Below are positions 3,277-59,595 of a stretch of DNA of 64,000 nt, piece after piece. A program made the position numbers and the translations under genes. Position 1 is the first letter of the stretch. Each line of letters starts with the position of its first letter. Origin of the DNA: Calothrix sp. FI2-JRJ7 (lineage in GTDB: Bacteria > Cyanobacteriota > Cyanobacteriia > Cyanobacteriales > Nostocaceae). Location: the NCBI GenBank assembly GCA_019359675.1, contig JAHHGX010000089.1, positions 1 through 64,000 on the forward strand, given 5' to 3'. Below the pieces are notes generated by a model. That model had not been told where the DNA came from. It searched no databases and worked only from the letters and a program-made list of their open reading frames with translations.

Positions 3277-4608
3277 ATGATTACAACCCAAATTCAAAAT
3301 CTCAAACCAAAAATCTCTCAATCTCCCTACCAAGCTTACGTTTACTCCTACCCACACAAAACCGCATACCGTCCCCTAACTCCACCTGTAAACCTTGCCA
3401 ACTTATGGTCAAACCAAGATAAAAGCGCGTTATTCCTCTACATACACATCCCCTTCTGTGAAATGCGCTGCGGGTTCTGCAACTTATTTACCACCGTCAC
3501 CCACAACGAAGATTTTGTAACTCAATACGTCAACACGCTACAGCGACAAGCCCAAAGGGTAAAATCAGCTTTAGGAAAATCATCATTCGCGCGCTTTGCT
3601 ATAGGTGGAGGAACACCGACTCAACTACCCATCCAGCACCTTGAAACAATCCTTAATATTGCTGAACAAACAATGGGCGCCAATTTACAGTCCATTCCTA
3701 TTTCTGTAGAAGTTTCCCCAGAGACAGCAACCCAAGATAAATTAAAGCTTTTACGAGAACGAGGCGCCGATAGAATTAGTATAGGTGTCCAAAGTTTCAT
3801 CGAGTCAGAAGTTTTAGCAACCCAACGGCGCCAAACCACTCCTCAAGTAGAAGCAGCTTTAGGAAGAATCAAAGAAGCAGGTTTTCCCACATTAAATATT
3901 GACTTAATTTACGGGCTTCCCGAACAAACTGTAGAAACTTTTTTACAGTCAATACACGCAGCATTGCGATTTCAACCAGAGGAAATATATCTATATCCTT
4001 TGTACGTGCGACCACTCACTGGTTTAGGACGTACTGATAAAGAATGGGATGATATTCGTATTGCTTGCTACCGTGCAGGGCGGCAGTTATTGCTATCTAA
4101 AGGTTATTCTCAGGTTTCAATGCGGATGTTTCAAGGACGCGAAAATAATCCTGCATCACCTGTTTACTGTTGCCAAGCTGATGGTATGGTTGGTTTAGGA
4201 TGCGGCGCCCGTTCTTACACCGACACTTTGCACTATTCTAATGACTACGCGGTTGGTGTAAAAGAAATTAGGGATATTTTACAAGCTTATATACAGAGCA
4301 GTAATGAAGCTTTTGATTTTGCTAGCTATGGGTTTAAGCTAGATGCAAATGAACAACGGCGCCGTTATATTTTGCTATCTTTACTTTCTGATGAAGGGTT
4401 AAATTTTGCTAGCTATGGGCAAAGGTTTAATAGCTGTGTTTATATAGATTTTCCTGAACTTTGCGAACTAAAACAGCTAAATTTGGGAATGGAAGATGGG
4501 GAAATATTACGGTTGACTGAAGCTGGTATTGAACTTTCTGATGTAATTGGCGCCTGGTTGTTTTCTGAGAAGGTGCTGGAGTTGATGGATGGTTATGAGT
4601 TGAAATAA
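3277..4608 (+). CDS. STM4012-family radical SAM enzyme (HemN-like)
   Basis: A 443-residue radical SAM protein related to coproporphyrinogen dehydrogenase HemN/HemW. The cluster-binding motif CEMRCGFC (CX3CX2C) is at about residues 61-68, preceded by FLYIHIPF, and the SAM-binding glycine motif GGGTPTQL follows. It ends in a HemN-type C-terminal domain. The neighbouring hydrolase, STM4015-like proteins and second radical SAM enzyme identify it as the STM4012 family rather than heme biosynthesis. It would cleave SAM to a 5'-deoxyadenosyl radical; the substrate is unknown. It contains several GGCGCC sites, in keeping with long residence in this genome. Confidence 0.85.
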   Translation: MITTQIQNLKPKISQSPYQAYVYSYPHKTAYRPLTPPVNLANLWSNQDKSALFLYIHIPFCEMRCGFCNLFTTVTHNEDFVTQYVNTLQRQAQRVKSALGKSSFARFAIGGGTPTQLPIQHLETILNIAEQTMGANLQSIPISVEVSPETATQDKLKLLRERGADRISIGVQSFIESEVLATQRRQTTPQVEAALGRIKEAGFPTLNIDLIYGLPEQTVETFLQSIHAALRFQPEEIYLYPLYVRPLTGLGRTDKEWDDIRIACYRAGRQLLLSKGYSQVSMRMFQGRENNPASPVYCCQADGMVGLGCGARSYTDTLHYSNDYAVGVKEIRDILQAYIQSSNEAFDFASYGFKLDANEQRRRYILLSLLSDEGLNFASYGQRFNSCVYIDFPELCELKQLNLGMEDGEILRLTEAGIELSDVIGAWLFSEKVLELMDGYELK

Positions 4609-4764
4609 ATTGGCAACGGATGTAACGGATGAACTCATGTCATGCTGAGGTACGTAAACGTAGTTTTCCCGCTTTCTTAGCATCTTCAAGATTTTCACTT
4701 GCTTTAAAAGTAAAGCTGTAACCCGTTTTCAGTATATCAAAGGCTTTAAAAACCTCTCCCCCAA

Positions 4765-4786
4765 CCCCTCTCCTAAAGGAGAGGGG
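4765..4786. repeat. Perfect 9-bp GC-rich hairpin
   Basis: CCCCTCTCC and GGAGAGGGG are separated by TAAA. It lies in the gap after the STM4012-type gene and could act as a terminator or be one of the dispersed cyanobacterial hairpins; no T-run follows on either strand. Confidence 0.5.
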
Positions 4787-4855
4787 AGTAAATTTTATCA
4801 CTGTAACTTAACTTAAATATTTACTATTTATAATACAATTTTTGACCAACAAAAT

Positions 4856-5146
4856 ATGACAAATAATCAAAATCAACCAAGAGAATTCGATGCTGTTCGT
4901 GGAGGAGAAACACCCCCACCTATACAAGGTGCCGTGTTAGGTGGCATTAAGGGAGTCAAACAACGTTTAGGTAGTCCTGTTTTTGAAGTGCGCGTTGCTG
5001 CGTTGAGTGAAGGTCATTGATTGAACCATGCTGTAGTGTGGACGGTTCCCTATACAAAGTTTATTTTAGAAGGAAGTAGGGGAATAATAAGTGTACAAGA
5101 TGTAGAGAACTACATCCAGCATCTTAACTTAGATATTTTCATATAG
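4856..5146 (+). pseudogene. Chimeric relic: STM4015 N-terminus joined to STM4013 C-terminus
   Basis: ATG 4856 opens a frame almost identical to the start of the next two genes (DAVRGGETPPP, GAVLGG, then RVAALS) and stops at TGA 5018-5020 after 54 residues. In the same frame, immediately after the stop, comes HAVVWTVPYTKFIL, matching the last residues of the hydrolase at 3217 (HPVVWTVPYAEFIL), and it goes on for about 25 further residues to TAG 5144-5146. So a truncated STM4015 copy abuts a truncated STM4013 copy. I infer duplication of the cassette followed by a deletion. No product is expected. Confidence 0.78.
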
Positions 5147-5167: not shown

Positions 5168-6454
5168 ATGACAAACAATCAAAATCACCCTAAAGAATTT
5201 GATGCTGTTCGTGGAGGAGAAGCGCCCCCACCTATACTAGGCGCCGTGTTAGGTGGTATTGAGGGAGTTAAACGGCGTTTAGCTAGTTCTGAAGAAAAAA
5301 CGCGCGTTGCTGCATTAAGTAGCGCGCTCAACTACGGTGATACAGGTTTAAATGTACTGATTAAAGCTTTAGAAAATGATTCAGCAAAAGTACGGAAAAA
5401 AGCAGCAAAATTATTAAATAATATAGATAAAAATAAAGTTAAAGCAGCTTTGACAAAATATAAGTTCTGGACTAGCTTTGAAAAATATTATGAAATCCCT
5501 TGTAATTACTCGACTACATTCGCTAACCGAAAAGTAATTGAGTTTGACCCTGTAACTGGTATTAGTGATACTGTTGATACTGCTTATGCTTTAAGAGTTG
5601 TCCCAGGAGAAGACTACTATACAAAGTCAGTTTTGAATAGCGTAGAAAAATTGCAAGTTTTATTACAAAGTCATTTTGCTAATGAGGTTGAAGCTTTGGT
5701 ATTTGGATATTGGTATTCAAGGTCTTTGAAAGACCATACTTTTCATCCTGTTTTAGATGCATTACTCGAAGCTGCCGAAAAACTTAATAATGTTAAAGCT
5801 TTATTTATAGGAGATGTTAATTTATCTGAATTGCACAGAATTTCCCTTGTATACTGTAATTTTAGTTATATTTTACTGGCGTATCCACAGTTAGAAACAT
5901 TAAAAGTTCGCAATAATTGCCATAGATACAGTTGTTACTCTAATTACGCAGTAGGATTAGAATTTAGCCCAATTCGACATGAAAAACTTAAAGCACTAAT
6001 TATTGAAGGTGTTGGCATTTCAAATGAAGTGTTTGAAGAAATTTGTAAGCTTGAGTTACCTGCATTAGAATATCTTGAACTTTGGCTTGGTAAAGATAAG
6101 TATATCAATCACCATATTATTAATGAATTTATCTCAATGTTTTATAATAATTTTCCAAGACTTAAGTATTTAGGACTACGGAACTATGGTCATAGGTATT
6201 CAGGTAATATTACTTTTGCAGTAGCAAATTCTCCAATCTGTGAAAATTTAATTGAATTAGACATTTCAATTGGAGAAATTGAAGATGACGCAGCAAAAGC
6301 TTTACTTAAGTGTTCAGCAATTCGTCAACTAGATACTCTTAACATTTCTCATAATTGTTTAAATGATGGAATGGTTGGGAAAATAACCAAGTTAGATATT
6401 GAAGTTATTGCTGATAAACAAAATCCATATAGGTACTATTCTTCATATGGATAA
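5168..6454 (+). CDS. STM4015-family protein with HEAT-like leader and leucine-rich repeats
   Basis: A 428-residue cytosolic protein. Residues 1-40 form a leader (EFDAVRGGEAPPP, GAVLGGIEGVK). Residues 40-100 form one HEAT-like repeat pair (TRVAALSSALNYGDTGLNVL, then KVRKKAAKLL). The STM4015 core begins at FWTSFEKYYEIP with KVIEFDPVTGISD, and from about residue 190 leucine-rich repeats follow (LPALEYLELWLG, LKYLGLRNYG, LIELDISIG, LDTLNISHN). STM4015 proteins accompany the STM4011-4013 enzymes; their role is unknown, and a scaffold or modified target is only a guess. This is the only intact one of three tandem copies. A GC-poor sequence and few GGCGCC sites are typical of the copies. Confidence 0.8.
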   Translation: MTNNQNHPKEFDAVRGGEAPPPILGAVLGGIEGVKRRLASSEEKTRVAALSSALNYGDTGLNVLIKALENDSAKVRKKAAKLLNNIDKNKVKAALTKYKFWTSFEKYYEIPCNYSTTFANRKVIEFDPVTGISDTVDTAYALRVVPGEDYYTKSVLNSVEKLQVLLQSHFANEVEALVFGYWYSRSLKDHTFHPVLDALLEAAEKLNNVKALFIGDVNLSELHRISLVYCNFSYILLAYPQLETLKVRNNCHRYSCYSNYAVGLEFSPIRHEKLKALIIEGVGISNEVFEEICKLELPALEYLELWLGKDKYINHHIINEFISMFYNNFPRLKYLGLRNYGHRYSGNITFAVANSPICENLIELDISIGEIEDDAAKALLKCSAIRQLDTLNISHNCLNDGMVGKITKLDIEVIADKQNPYRYYSSYG

Positions 6455-18886: not shown

Positions 18887-19939
18887 ATGAAAATTGAACA
18901 CGTTCACTTTTACGTGGAAGATGCCAAAGCTTGGCGTGGCTGGTTTGTAAGTACTTTAGGTTTTGAAGCGGTAGACGACTACATGCTTCCTCCTTATCCT
19001 CTTAACTACGAGAATGATAATCATACTTGTACTCAAGTAGTCAAAAGCGGTTCTATCTGCTTCGTACTATCTTCACCGTTATTACCTAACAGTCCAGTCG
19101 CTGAGTTTCTACGTCACCACCCACCTGGTGTAGCTGATGTGGCATTTACTGTAGAAGATATTCAAGATATACAGGAGCGCGCTTATAATTACGGCGCCAA
19201 AATTTTGCAACCAATTAGCGAATATTATTGGAATGGTATTTATACTCAATTTACCAAAATTAAGGCTTGGGGTTCCCTATCGCATACCTTAATCGAAACA
19301 GACCTCAAGGCGCCTACAAAAACGCCTGGGACACTAGTCAACATCGACCACATTGTATTAAATGTACCAACAGGGGAATTAGACAACGCTGTAACTTGGT
19401 ACGAAAAAATACTTGATTTTCAACCACAGCAAAGTTTTAACATCCAAACTGAAAATTCAGGGTTACACAGTCGGGTCATGATATCGCGTTGTGGTGGTGT
19501 ACAGCTACCAATTAACCAACCTACAACAGGTAACTCGCAAATTCAAGAGTTTCTGGACTTCAACCGAGGTGCAGGAATTCAACATATTGCTTTATCGTCG
19601 TTTAACCTACTGGAAATGATTTCCCTGTTTCGTTCTCGTAGCTTGCCTTTTTTAGTGGTTCCCCCAACTTATTATTCTCAGCTTGTAACTAGACCCGGTT
19701 TTCCACTTTCTCCATCCGAAATTAACTCCCTCACTCAACAAGAAATTTTAGTTGACTGGCGAGAAGATAATCCAGGCGCCTTATTGTTACAAATCTTTAC
19801 TCAACCCATTTTCGGGCAACCGACATTTTTCTTTGAATTCATCGAACGTCGTAACCTCGCTAAAGGATTTGGGGAAGGCAATTTTCGTGCGCTATTTGAA
19901 GCTATCGAGCGCGAACAGTTAAAACGCGCTCCGGAGTAA
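18887..19939 (+). CDS. hppD: 4-hydroxyphenylpyruvate dioxygenase
   Basis: A 350-residue member of the vicinal-oxygen-chelate superfamily with two repeated domains. Iron ligands fit the histidines in IDHIVLNVP (second domain start) and GIQHIALSS, and the glutamate in FFFEFIERR near the C-terminus. The enzyme converts 4-hydroxyphenylpyruvate to homogentisate, the head-group precursor of tocopherol in cyanobacteria. Sequence ends in GFGEGNFRALFEAIEREQ, the family's C-terminal lid helix. It stands alone, followed by a small hairpin. Confidence 0.9.
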   Translation: MKIEHVHFYVEDAKAWRGWFVSTLGFEAVDDYMLPPYPLNYENDNHTCTQVVKSGSICFVLSSPLLPNSPVAEFLRHHPPGVADVAFTVEDIQDIQERAYNYGAKILQPISEYYWNGIYTQFTKIKAWGSLSHTLIETDLKAPTKTPGTLVNIDHIVLNVPTGELDNAVTWYEKILDFQPQQSFNIQTENSGLHSRVMISRCGGVQLPINQPTTGNSQIQEFLDFNRGAGIQHIALSSFNLLEMISLFRSRSLPFLVVPPTYYSQLVTRPGFPLSPSEINSLTQQEILVDWREDNPGALLLQIFTQPIFGQPTFFFEFIERRNLAKGFGEGNFRALFEAIEREQLKRAPE

Positions 19940-56712: not shown

Positions 56713-58050
56713 GTGAGTGCATTTACCTCTATGTCATCTCCAATGAGTTTACTAATTCGCCGTGCAAGCATCATTTTACCTGATGGTACGTACATGGTTG
56801 GGGATGTACTAACGCGCGGCGGAATGATCGTCGAAGTTGGACCCGACATTGAAGCCACGAGCGCGACTACGGAAATTGACGCAGAAGGGTTAACTTTGTT
56901 GCCCGGAGTTATAGACCCGCAGGTACACTTTCGCGAACCGGGACTCGAACATAAGGAGAACCTGTTTACTGCAAGTTGTGCTTGTGCCAAAGGCGGAGTC
57001 ACTTCGTTTTTAGAGATGCCGAATACGCGACCTCTAACTACTACTCAGCAAACCTTGGACGACAAGTTACAGCGTGCGTCACAAAAGTGCCTAGTTAATT
57101 ATGGCTTTTTTATTGGAGCAACGTCCGAAAATTTACCTGATTTGCTTTCATGTAACCCCACATGCGGAATCAAAATTTTTATGGGGTCAATGCACGGTCA
57201 GCTTTTGGTAGATGACGACACTTTACTCGATAAAATATTTGCTTCGGGTTCGCGCTTGATTGCGGTTCATGCCGAAGACCAAGCACGTATTAACCAACGG
57301 CGCCAAGAATTTGCTGGTATTACTGACCCAGCAGTTCATTCTCAAATTCAAGATAACCAAGCTGCACTTCTAGCAACCAAACTAGCATTAAAACTATCTA
57401 AAAAATATCAGCGGCGGTTACATATTCTGCATATGTCTACGGCAGATGAAGCAGAGTTGTTACGTGAGGATAAACCAAGTTGGGTTACGGCAGAAGTGAC
57501 GCCACAGCATTTGCTCTTAGATACAAGCGCTTATGCAAAAATTGGAACCTTAGCGCAAATGAATCCTCCCCTACGTACATCTCACGACTGTGAAGTACTA
57601 TGGCAAGCGCTACACGATGGTGTTATTGATTTTATTGCTACTGACCACGCACCTCATACTTTGGAGGAAAAAGCTCAACAGTATCCTAATAGTCCTTCTG
57701 GAATGCCTGGAGTTGAGACTTCGCTCTTGCTAATGCTAACCGCAGCAATGCAGGGTAAATGTAGCGTTCATCAAGTCGTTAACTGGATGTCTACTGCTGT
57801 AGCCAAAGCTTATAAAATACCAAACAAAGGGGCAATTGCTGTAGGCTATGATGCTGACTTAATACTAGTTGACTTGAAAACATATCGTCCTGTACTGCGT
57901 GAAGAACTATTTACGAAGTGTGGATGGAGTCCTTTTGAAGGTTGGAACTTGACGGGATGGGTACAAACGACAATTGTCGGTGGTCAAATCGTTTATCACC
58001 AAGGTAAACTCTGTACCTACGTGCGTGGTCAAGCTTTGCAGTTTGGCTAA
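56713..58050 (+). CDS. pyrC: Dihydroorotase (class I)
   Basis: A 445-residue amidohydrolase. The zinc ligands are in PGVIDPQVHFREPG (HxH-like), the bridging-lysine region is around GATSENLP and KIFMG, further histidines are in ILHMS and the acid in ATDHAPH. It interconverts carbamoyl-aspartate and dihydroorotate in pyrimidine synthesis. GTG 56713 has AAGGGA eight bases upstream; ATG 56731 is a possible alternative. Class I dihydroorotases of this kind may also be inactive partners of ATCase, but all visible ligands are kept. Two terminator-like hairpins follow. Confidence 0.9.
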   Translation: MSAFTSMSSPMSLLIRRASIILPDGTYMVGDVLTRGGMIVEVGPDIEATSATTEIDAEGLTLLPGVIDPQVHFREPGLEHKENLFTASCACAKGGVTSFLEMPNTRPLTTTQQTLDDKLQRASQKCLVNYGFFIGATSENLPDLLSCNPTCGIKIFMGSMHGQLLVDDDTLLDKIFASGSRLIAVHAEDQARINQRRQEFAGITDPAVHSQIQDNQAALLATKLALKLSKKYQRRLHILHMSTADEAELLREDKPSWVTAEVTPQHLLLDTSAYAKIGTLAQMNPPLRTSHDCEVLWQALHDGVIDFIATDHAPHTLEEKAQQYPNSPSGMPGVETSLLLMLTAAMQGKCSVHQVVNWMSTAVAKAYKIPNKGAIAVGYDADLILVDLKTYRPVLREELFTKCGWSPFEGWNLTGWVQTTIVGGQIVYHQGKLCTYVRGQALQFG

Positions 58051-58161: not shown

Positions 58162-58191
58162 AAAAAACTCGCAGATGAAGCGAGTTTTTTT
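58162..58191 (+). terminator. Intrinsic terminator
   Basis: AAACTCGC and GCGAGTTT form an 8-bp stem around AGATGAA, flanked by an A-run and a T7 run, so it could work in both directions. Confidence 0.7.
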
Positions 58192-58308: not shown

Positions 58309-58450
58309 ATTAATAATAATCGACATCGAATAGATACTTAAGAAAATAAATTTAAGTAATTATTTTTTGTTACTTTACGGAGAAATACTCAGGTGAAAGG
58401 AAAATCTCTATGTAAAGCTGAGAAAAAGTTCAAACATTAATCAGGGGTCA

Positions 58451-58756
58451 ATGATAATAAATAGTTCAAAACAATCTTTAAATTATCCATTTTTTTGGAT
58501 AAAAGAGATATTTAATGTTAAATGGATACTTAATTATTTGAAATATGAATATATATATTGGCTGAATTGGGCGCCTTTGATATTGACGGCTATCTGGACT
58601 ACATTCTACCAGTTCGGAAAATTTTTTAAAAACAGTCAAAAAAAATCCGGATTGCACAAGAGGCAGGGTGTAATTGGACTTGATGTATTTAAACTCGAAA
58701 CTAAATTCAGTTTACATACTCTAGAAAGCCTGTATCTATTTGATTCTAGGAAATGA
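58451..58756 (+). CDS. Small protein of unknown function upstream of the patS-like gene
   Basis: A 101-residue protein preceded by AGGGGT at 58443. The middle (about 38-52: YWLNWAPLILTAIWTTF) is hydrophobic and may be a membrane segment; the ends are basic (FKNSQKKSGLHKRQG). I do not recognise a family. It ends 44 bases before the patS-like start, on the same strand, so both may share a transcript. A GGCGCC site and a good ribosome site favour a real gene, though it may be lineage-specific. Confidence 0.45.
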   Translation: MIINSSKQSLNYPFFWIKEIFNVKWILNYLKYEYIYWLNWAPLILTAIWTTFYQFGKFFKNSQKKSGLHKRQGVIGLDVFKLETKFSLHTLESLYLFDSRK

Positions 58757-58800
58757 ATATTTAAATTGTAAAACTATTAATTAAAATCGAGGAAAGAAAA

Positions 58801-58914
58801 ATGATGGTATTTTTTGACTGCGAAAGAGGTAGCGGTAGAGTTGATGCAGTAATGTTTTTAAGTGATGATAGAGGTAGCGGCAGAATTAACACTATAATGG
58901 ACACCAACTCATAG
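58801..58914 (+). CDS. patS: PatS-like heterocyst inhibitor peptide with two RGSGR motifs
   Basis: A 37-codon gene with a strong ribosome site (GAGGAAAG, seven bases before ATG 58801; ATG 58804 is the alternative). Residues 1-13 read MMVFFDCERGSGR, closely matching the end of Anabaena PatS (LVNFCDERGSGR). Residues 18-28 repeat the plan: MFLSDDRGSGR, followed by INTIMDTNS. ERGSGR and RGSGR are the peptides that bind HetR and block heterocyst differentiation in neighbouring cells. Two copies in one small peptide, neither at the C-terminus, is unusual. The stop overlaps the end of the convergent sigma-factor gene by six bases. Identification rests on the motif and size; no hetR is in the window. 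Confidence 0.8.
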   Translation: MMVFFDCERGSGRVDAVMFLSDDRGSGRINTIMDTNS

Positions 58915-59595
58915 ATAGCCTTCGCTTTCTGCAAATTGACGTAACCTAGGTATACACTGACGCTGGTAAAAACTGCTCAAAGTCGAAACTGTTAATCCGT
59001 ATTCGTTCGCTAATTCCTTCCAACTAACTTCTGGTGGTAAACGTTTCAAGATTAACACCTGGCAGTTTACATCGGGTCGTCCTTGAATATAAGTTTGACG
59101 TAAGTCTCCTGAAATATCAGCTTCTGCCCACAACTGAACATTTTCTAAAATAGGAGGAGCGTCAGGAGGTGCAGCAATATTGTCTACAGGGTCATATATA
59201 TCACTTTTATCACCCGAAGCTAACTGCTGTATGCCCAAAGATGCTTTTCTGATATTGTCTTCTTGTGTTTTTAGGTACAAATCTTGTAACCTATGCTTTA
59301 AGTACGCATTCAGCCACGTTATAACCGTTCCCCGGTCAGGGTCATAACCCTCACAAATATTTCGGCAGAAATATAACCAAGTTTGCTGTAAAGCGTCTTG
59401 ATAATAAGAAGTATTTTCTCTCCACAGTCTGACGGTAACTAAACGAATAATTTGCGTCAAAACTCTAGCTCTTTGTGGACTTCCGGGTGGATGTCCACAA
59501 GCTTCTTCAACTAATTGACGTAATTGTCCCTCCAATCCACTCATGCAATAATTCAAGCCAAACGATGCTATCTGAGTATTGCTTATGGTCTGCAT
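58909..59595 (-). CDS. ECF-like sigma-70 family factor
   Basis: A 228-residue protein. Region 2 includes YQDALQQTWLYFCRNICEGYDP and GTVITWLNAYLKHRLQDLYL; region 4 near the C-terminus has LPPEVSWKELANEYGLTVSTLSSFYQRQ, a helix-turn-helix. The pattern fits the cyanobacterial group-3-like sigma factors that lack region 3. The start could be ATG 59595 or a later Met (SGLEGQLRQLVEEA). No anti-sigma gene is adjacent. Its 3' end overlaps that of the patS-like gene. Confidence 0.78.
   Translation of the reverse strand: MQTISNTQIASFGLNYCMSGLEGQLRQLVEEACGHPPGSPQRARVLTQIIRLVTVRLWRENTSYYQDALQQTWLYFCRNICEGYDPDRGTVITWLNAYLKHRLQDLYLKTQEDNIRKASLGIQQLASGDKSDIYDPVDNIAAPPDAPPILENVQLWAEADISGDLRQTYIQGRPDVNCQVLILKRLPPEVSWKELANEYGLTVSTLSSFYQRQCIPRLRQFAESEGYL

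Follow-up and report, generated by a model that had tools for sequence, protein, structure and literature searches.

A probable patS ortholog with two internal RGSGR signals in Calothrix sp. FI2-JRJ7 and its multi-unit relatives

The window analysed here, a 64,000-nucleotide stretch of the genome of Calothrix sp. FI2-JRJ7, carries a short gene whose product contains two RGSGR motifs (Table 1). Its translation, MMVFFDCERGSGRVDAVMFLSDDRGSGRINTIMDTNS followed by a stop codon, bears out what had been described from the sequence alone: ERGSGR lies at residues 8–13 and DRGSGR at residues 23–28, and neither motif is terminal, with a tail of 9 residues following core 2. An AGGA-type stretch precedes the start codon in six of the six loci examined, this one included. 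The gene starts 750 nt after a dihydroorotase-like gene, which we take to be pyrC, and on the same strand. The intervening sequence holds a terminator-like hairpin, a conserved block and a small open reading frame (ORF). The last 6 nt of the frame overlap the 3′ end of a convergent neighbour, which is present in the loci of all nine relatives with the tandem gene. The sequence-only reading had called this neighbour a sigma-factor gene; the overlap stands, and the sigma identity is weakly supported (TIGR02937, 20.4 bits against a cut-off of 42.9, E 3.2e-4). Searches of Rfam returned matches below gathering scores only.

Table 1 Features of the probable tandem patS locus in the window.
Feature	Position	Strand	Description
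pyrC (presumed; dihydroorotase-like)	56713..58050	+	synteny marker for patS across the family
Terminator-like hairpin	58162..58190	+	after pyrC, sets pyrC apart from the patS unit; GCGAGTTT arm conserved in alignment
Putative promoter block	58374..58419	+	NtcA-like TTAN8TAC (58375-58388), 20 nt, TATGTA (58409-58414)
Small upstream ORF	58451..58756	+	length 101 aa in this genome, of which about 65 aa (58451-58645) form a conserved core; weakly hydrophobic
DIF1 motif	58646..58674	+	TCCGGA (58646-58651), 17 nt, TGTAAT (58669-58674); at -155 of patS
Shine-Dalgarno-like GAGGA	58789..58793	+	ahead of the tandem patS start
Tandem patS (probable)	58801..58914	+	37-codon frame, ERGSGR (58822-58839) and DRGSGR (58867-58884)
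Signal core 1, ERGSGR	58822..58839	+	residues 8-13; RGSGR identical in 24/24 units, 10 genomes
Signal core 2, DRGSGR	58867..58884	+	residues 23-28; RGSGR identical in 24/24 units
Convergent neighbour	58909..59595	-	228-codon frame, weakly sigma-70-like; overlaps the patS frame at 58909-58914

The 37-codon frame with its two RGSGR motifs is confirmed as real rather than fortuitous. Among 300 order-1 Markov shuffles of the whole window, none contained a pair of RG[ST]GR motifs at most 40 residues apart in one frame, compared with one such pair in the window, and single motifs arose 0.12 times per shuffle compared with two in the window. What speaks for a chance frame or a low-complexity repeat is that genome-wide sites coding approximately for [EDHQ]RG[ST]GR show no excess (15 sites, compared with 22 when the pattern is reversed), so that the case rests on the pair, the frame and its conservation. 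The absence of pairs from the shuffles and the retention of the frame in ten genomes at a syntenic place rule this explanation out, leaving it a vanishingly small probability.

When checked for conservation, the frame and both motifs proved to be kept in all seven genomes of the genus, the other six being Dulcicalothrix desertica PCC 7102, Calothrix sp. PCC 7103, HK-06, PCC 7716, NIES-4105 and the metagenome-assembled genome (MAG) C42_A2020_038. At the same locus in a second Calothrix genus, the number of RGSGR copies rises to four in Calothrix elsteri CCALA 953 and to three in both Calothrix sp. NIES-4101 and MAG CSU_2_0. A profile of the tandem gene matched 13 of 217 family genomes at E ≤0.01; ten of these matches are the tandem patS genes, and the remainder comprise one polyketide-synthase-like frame (G198) and, in G039 and G041, frames with a single motif.

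The tandem genes share a regular architecture, with a unit period of 15 residues in nine of the ten and of 14 residues in NIES-4101. Around the invariant RGSGR of the 24 units, the preceding residue is D in 17 and E in 7, the following residue is I in 17 and V in 7, and an F lies four positions ahead of the acidic residue in 17. The proposal that a PatS-sized unit had been duplicated in tandem agrees with the 15-residue period and with the 76% identity of the two 33-nt cores of the present gene. Compared within each tandem gene, these cores are 61–94% identical; the top pair is found in C. elsteri, as expected of a recent tandem duplication there. The seven genus sequences (87 aligned nt) differ in 23 columns, distributed over codon positions 1, 2 and 3 as 7, 4 and 12, and within the two RGSGR cores all three variable columns fall at position 3 (0/0/3). 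For the 11 pairs of tandem genes that involve NIES-4105 or C42, pS is 0.25–0.39 and pN 0.09–0.18. The five close genus sequences hold too few changes for pN/pS, with pN exceeding pS in two pairs.

The product resembles PatS in being a short peptide with [DE]RGSGR. The NCBIfam PatS model NF047415, of 13 positions, matches it in two stretches with 23.9 bits (E 2.4e-5), below the 30-bit cut-off that is exceeded in 70 of the 217 family genomes. Stronger evidence of identity than this score comes from the place of the gene downstream of pyrC. In 62 of the 70 genomes with an over-cut-off patS, pyrC was among the matches listed (the other eight were left out of the count), and among these matches the canonical patS lies 0.8–2.8 kb downstream of pyrC in 52, on the pyrC strand in every one of the 52. 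In the remaining ten, patS does not follow pyrC on the same strand, and in six of these it sits on another contig, which counts against the argument from synteny. Forty stretches downstream of pyrC, hand-picked from genera both with a PatS match and lacking one, contained an RG[ST]GR frame in 23 cases and none in 17, one of the blanks (L232) being only 500 bases long. All 23 frames are single-copy, with RGSGR terminal in 16 and followed by a tail in seven. One such frame, MREIFDCERGSGRLTFELQ in genome G093, about 0.7 kb downstream of pyrC, is a tailed single unit similar to the first unit of the tandem gene; given this form, tail and multiplication may have been successive evolutionary steps.

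A separate canonical patS, the presence of which had been named as telling against the sequence-only reading, was looked for elsewhere in the genome. No match exceeds the NCBIfam PatS cut-off and the sole match has an E value of 0.945, and on this cut-off a hidden canonical copy was rejected. The tandem frame itself occupies the canonical place downstream of pyrC. Membership of PatX was likewise rejected: the frame scores 13.3 bits with NF047413, against a 30-bit cut-off, and by eye has no hydrophobic, secretion-type N-terminus. The best reading of the frame is a patS ortholog whose signal unit was multiplied by tandem duplication. Of the 15 genomic sites mentioned above, obtained with a pattern limited to E, D, H or Q before RGSGR and thus not reaching HetN-like proteins with other flanks, six read RG[ST]GR in frame. 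Two are the motifs of the tandem patS and one is that of patX; the others lie in frames of 731 aa and 23 aa and in a stop-to-stop frame of 37 aa. The last of these (L027, G000:C22:31714) ends in RRERGSGRRR, has no NCBIfam match, and could be either a chance occurrence or another inhibitor. A search of a plasmid collection gave one irrelevant Streptomyces match.

Upstream of the gene, the block at 58374–58419 is conserved in all ten tandem loci and is a putative promoter; its TTAN8TAC element is one base off the NtcA consensus. The block was not found, at up to eight mismatches, in 71 other loci, many of which span only 1.5 kb beside patS. The DIF1 motif is known from patS and patX promoters. 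Here its arrangement may form a second promoter inside the small ORF, weakly indicated because TCCGGA occurs at this place in only four of the ten tandem loci, and its role as the main patS promoter at −155 is doubtful on the same count. This contrasts with patX of the source genome, whose promoter has retained DIF1 at −62 and, at −89, an NtcA box.

The small upstream ORF has no Pfam or NCBIfam match. Its profile matches 33 of the 217 family genomes at E ≤0.1, ten of them strongly (E ≤1.6e-11); these ten are the seven tandem genomes of the genus and the three of the second genus, and the next best match has an E value of 6.9e-4. A stop interrupts the ORF in one of the ten tandem genomes. Pairwise comparison of six sequences from the genus gave a pN lower than pS in 14 of the 15 pairs, with the two values close against NIES-4105, so that the ORF is probably coding and under weaker constraint than patS.

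Heterocyst spacing serves as a model of patterning, with HetR as the activator and PatS or PatX as the diffusible inhibitor. The source genome encodes a single HetR, close to solved HetR structures, in which R223 is kept and 66 of the 82 hood residues (215–296) are as in a genome with canonical patS. It also encodes a PatX with one HRGSGR, located elsewhere than the tandem patS and scoring over the cut-off (50.3 bits). With this single-copy PatX present, the small upstream ORF broken in one genome and the DIF1 motif not conserved, the tandem gene might be thought a remnant of patS that is decaying or has lost its function, leaving the work to patX. We regard this as very unlikely, as all 24 cores are intact, changes in the cores of the genus are silent only, the Shine-Dalgarno-like stretch is kept wherever examined, and the copy number is greater in the second genus.

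The likely explanation is instead that this is patS, in the position it usually has after pyrC, with its signal unit tandemly multiplied, such that each precursor would give several HetR-blocking peptides. The tandem patS would be transcribed from its own promoter in nitrogen-starved heterocysts or proheterocysts, presumably along with the small ORF ahead of it. Each unit would then be released by a cytoplasmic protease as a peptide of the [ED]RGSGR type, and the released peptides would pass into neighbouring cells, where, judging from PatS and PatX biology, they would bind the HetR hood domain in the manner of PatS-5/6 and block differentiation. Neither core is terminal, and so a cut after the core would be required. 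Anabaena PatS ends at RGSGR; the extra cut that internal cores need counts against this explanation, as does the residue ahead of core 2, which is D and not E. The PatS profile score below its cut-off, the C-terminal tail and the DIF1 motif kept in only four of ten loci weigh against it as well. ERGSGR and HRGTGR are described as acting on HetR (PMC7476756; PMC12756182). By analogy with yeast alpha-factor, where pheromone output rises with repeat number (PMC5850478), a precursor with two cores could at most double the signal from each round of translation.

HetR is oligomeric, and the peptide might alternatively act uncut, as a multivalent inhibitor whose two cores bind two HetR hoods of one oligomer in the producing cell. 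Such an inhibitor would be predicted to give tighter, cell-autonomous inhibition and not more diffusible signal. The regular spacing described above, the copy number of 2–4 and the flanks conserved on both sides ([DE] before and [IV] after the core) are in its favour, as a free peptide of five or six residues would not need all of these; the conserved flanks are, however, equally explicable as cleavage sites. Published work moreover holds that PatS is processed to a C-terminal peptide of about eight residues, PatS-17 processing being treated in the same source (PMC4133259), and that PatX is processed to a hexapeptide, with cleavage by PatP (PMC12756182). On this balance the uncut inhibitor is quite improbable.

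Somewhat less improbable, although still unlikely, is a difference in job between the cores, with ERGSGR as the PatS signal and DRGSGR as a second ligand of other affinity or range. This division of labour is compatible with the release of several peptides from one precursor. It draws on the order of the two residues, core 1 being preceded by E and core 2 by D in each of the seven genus genomes, and has a precedent in the diverged duplicate autoinducers of Bacillus Phr precursors (PMC5199041). All ten units of the second genus carry D before RGSGR, however, so that E and D need not mark a functional split.

Among known systems, the closest is PatS of Anabaena (Nostoc) PCC 7120 (asl2301; NF047415). 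Like the tandem gene, most PatS of the family are encoded downstream of pyrC on the same strand, and canonical PatS has a similar short start (MLVNFCD-ERGSGR-type, compared with MMVFFDC-ERGSGR in the tandem gene) with an acidic residue before RGSGR. Unlike PCC 7120 PatS, the tandem gene has two cores, neither of them terminal, a C-terminal tail and an extra small ORF upstream, and it is without a conserved DIF1. HetN of Anabaena, which resembles the short-chain dehydrogenases, shares with the tandem PatS an internal RGSGR, and we know of no relation between the two beyond the motif. Cytoplasmic hydrolysis has been suggested for HetN (PMC4133259). PatX (NF047413) is alike in that its RG[ST]GR may be internal and in that some PatX or PatX-like proteins are multi-copy. 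It differs in having a Sec signal sequence and being exported (PMC12756182), whereas the tandem PatS shows no such sequence and its genome has a PatX of its own.

Repeated autoinducers within one precursor are already known from Bacillus Phr (PMC5199041) and yeast alpha-factor (PMC5850478). Phr is likewise a short precursor with several identical or similar signals of 5–6 residues that bind a cytoplasmic regulator; it is a secreted quorum signal for Rap receptors, of unrelated sequence, and does not serve filament patterning (PMC5199041). Yeast MFalpha1 similarly has tandem signal repeats in one gene, with a copy number that varies among close relatives (PMC5850478), although this is a eukaryotic pheromone precursor unrelated to PatS. 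No report of several RGSGR motifs in PatS or PatX was found in the literature searched, which was seen in part and did not cover Elhai and Khudyakov 2018, where they may be described.

Multi-copy frames also occur elsewhere in the order. Of 388 genomes sampled from the order, 35 matched the tandem profile at E ≤0.1, and in all, PatX-like frames with 2–17 RGSGR copies were found in 11 other genomes, only some of them scoring as PatX. Six multi-motif frames are among 28 newly found loci (L052–L079), with 17 copies in G308, 11 in G224, four in G333, three in G412 and two each in G267 and G394. A set of 16 long PatX frames has several motifs in five, one motif in seven and none among those listed in four, copy numbers that give no rate because the frames were chosen for length. 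The five with several motifs (L179–L183) carry five copies in G316, four in G361 and three each in G248, G288 and G320, and every one of them passed the PatX cut-off when the genomes were searched; the 30 best loci of that PatX search are all single-copy. By eye, the multi-copy PatX-like frames have secretion-type N-termini. Scored as whole proteins, those of G361 (98.4 bits) and G316 (71.8 bits) exceed the 30-bit PatX cut-off, and those of G308 (15.8), G224 (23.3), G333 (13.4), G412 (12.5) and G267 (18.1) fall below it; in the PatX genome search the G224 frame reaches 34.1 bits and the G308 frame 26.1 bits. The repeat sequences differ between groups, which may point to several origins; multiplication of the HetR-inhibiting peptide may have happened repeatedly.

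In the Calothrix-type group, then, patS appears with its signal two to four times in a row, and a single product could yield the signal several times over. Whether filamentous cyanobacteria have repeatedly made the HetR-inhibiting morphogen a polyprotein, as PatS with 2–4 units in the Calothrix type and as PatX or PatX-like proteins with 2–17 units elsewhere, we judge to be evenly balanced. If so, evolution would be able to adjust inhibitor dose through the number of units, and with the dose the distances between differentiated cells, within a Turing-type system. The natural series of one, two, three and four units at one orthologous locus, extending to 17 in PatX-like proteins, offers a ready-made test of the way the pattern depends on inhibitor dose and processing. 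The internal cores also sharpen the question of PatS processing, as a free terminal RGSGR requires a cut after the core.

Several of the multi-copy loci have features of their own. The 17-copy protein of G308 (L195, contig C95, 4248–5264, minus strand) is a PatX-like protein of 338 aa with KSDFQSFDDGRGSGRI-type repeats and a secretion-type N-terminus. The same genome has a single-RGSGR frame (L270), a single-motif frame being scored there at 21.4 bits, below the PatX cut-off, and a PatX-scoring frame (L266) with no RG[ST]GR among the motifs listed. The PatX-like protein of G224 (L196, contig C156, 5004–5609, plus strand) has 201 aa and 11 RGSGR copies, and a search of this genome for HetR at E 1e-5 gave no match. 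In G333 (L197, contig C1, minus strand) the four-copy PatX-like frame (5196–5528) lies directly upstream of a frame that is HetR-like by eye (4019–4933), and G316 has two single-copy PatX frames besides its five-copy frame. The polyketide-synthase-like match in G198 (L012, contig C148, about 19200–19380), PfaA-type by NCBIfam at a score below the cut-off, consists of four tandem ERGTGRVNSILGEED units in a frame with acyltransferase and carrier domains; one ERGTGRVNSILGEED unit occurs within a frame with the same kinds of domain in G178 (L071).
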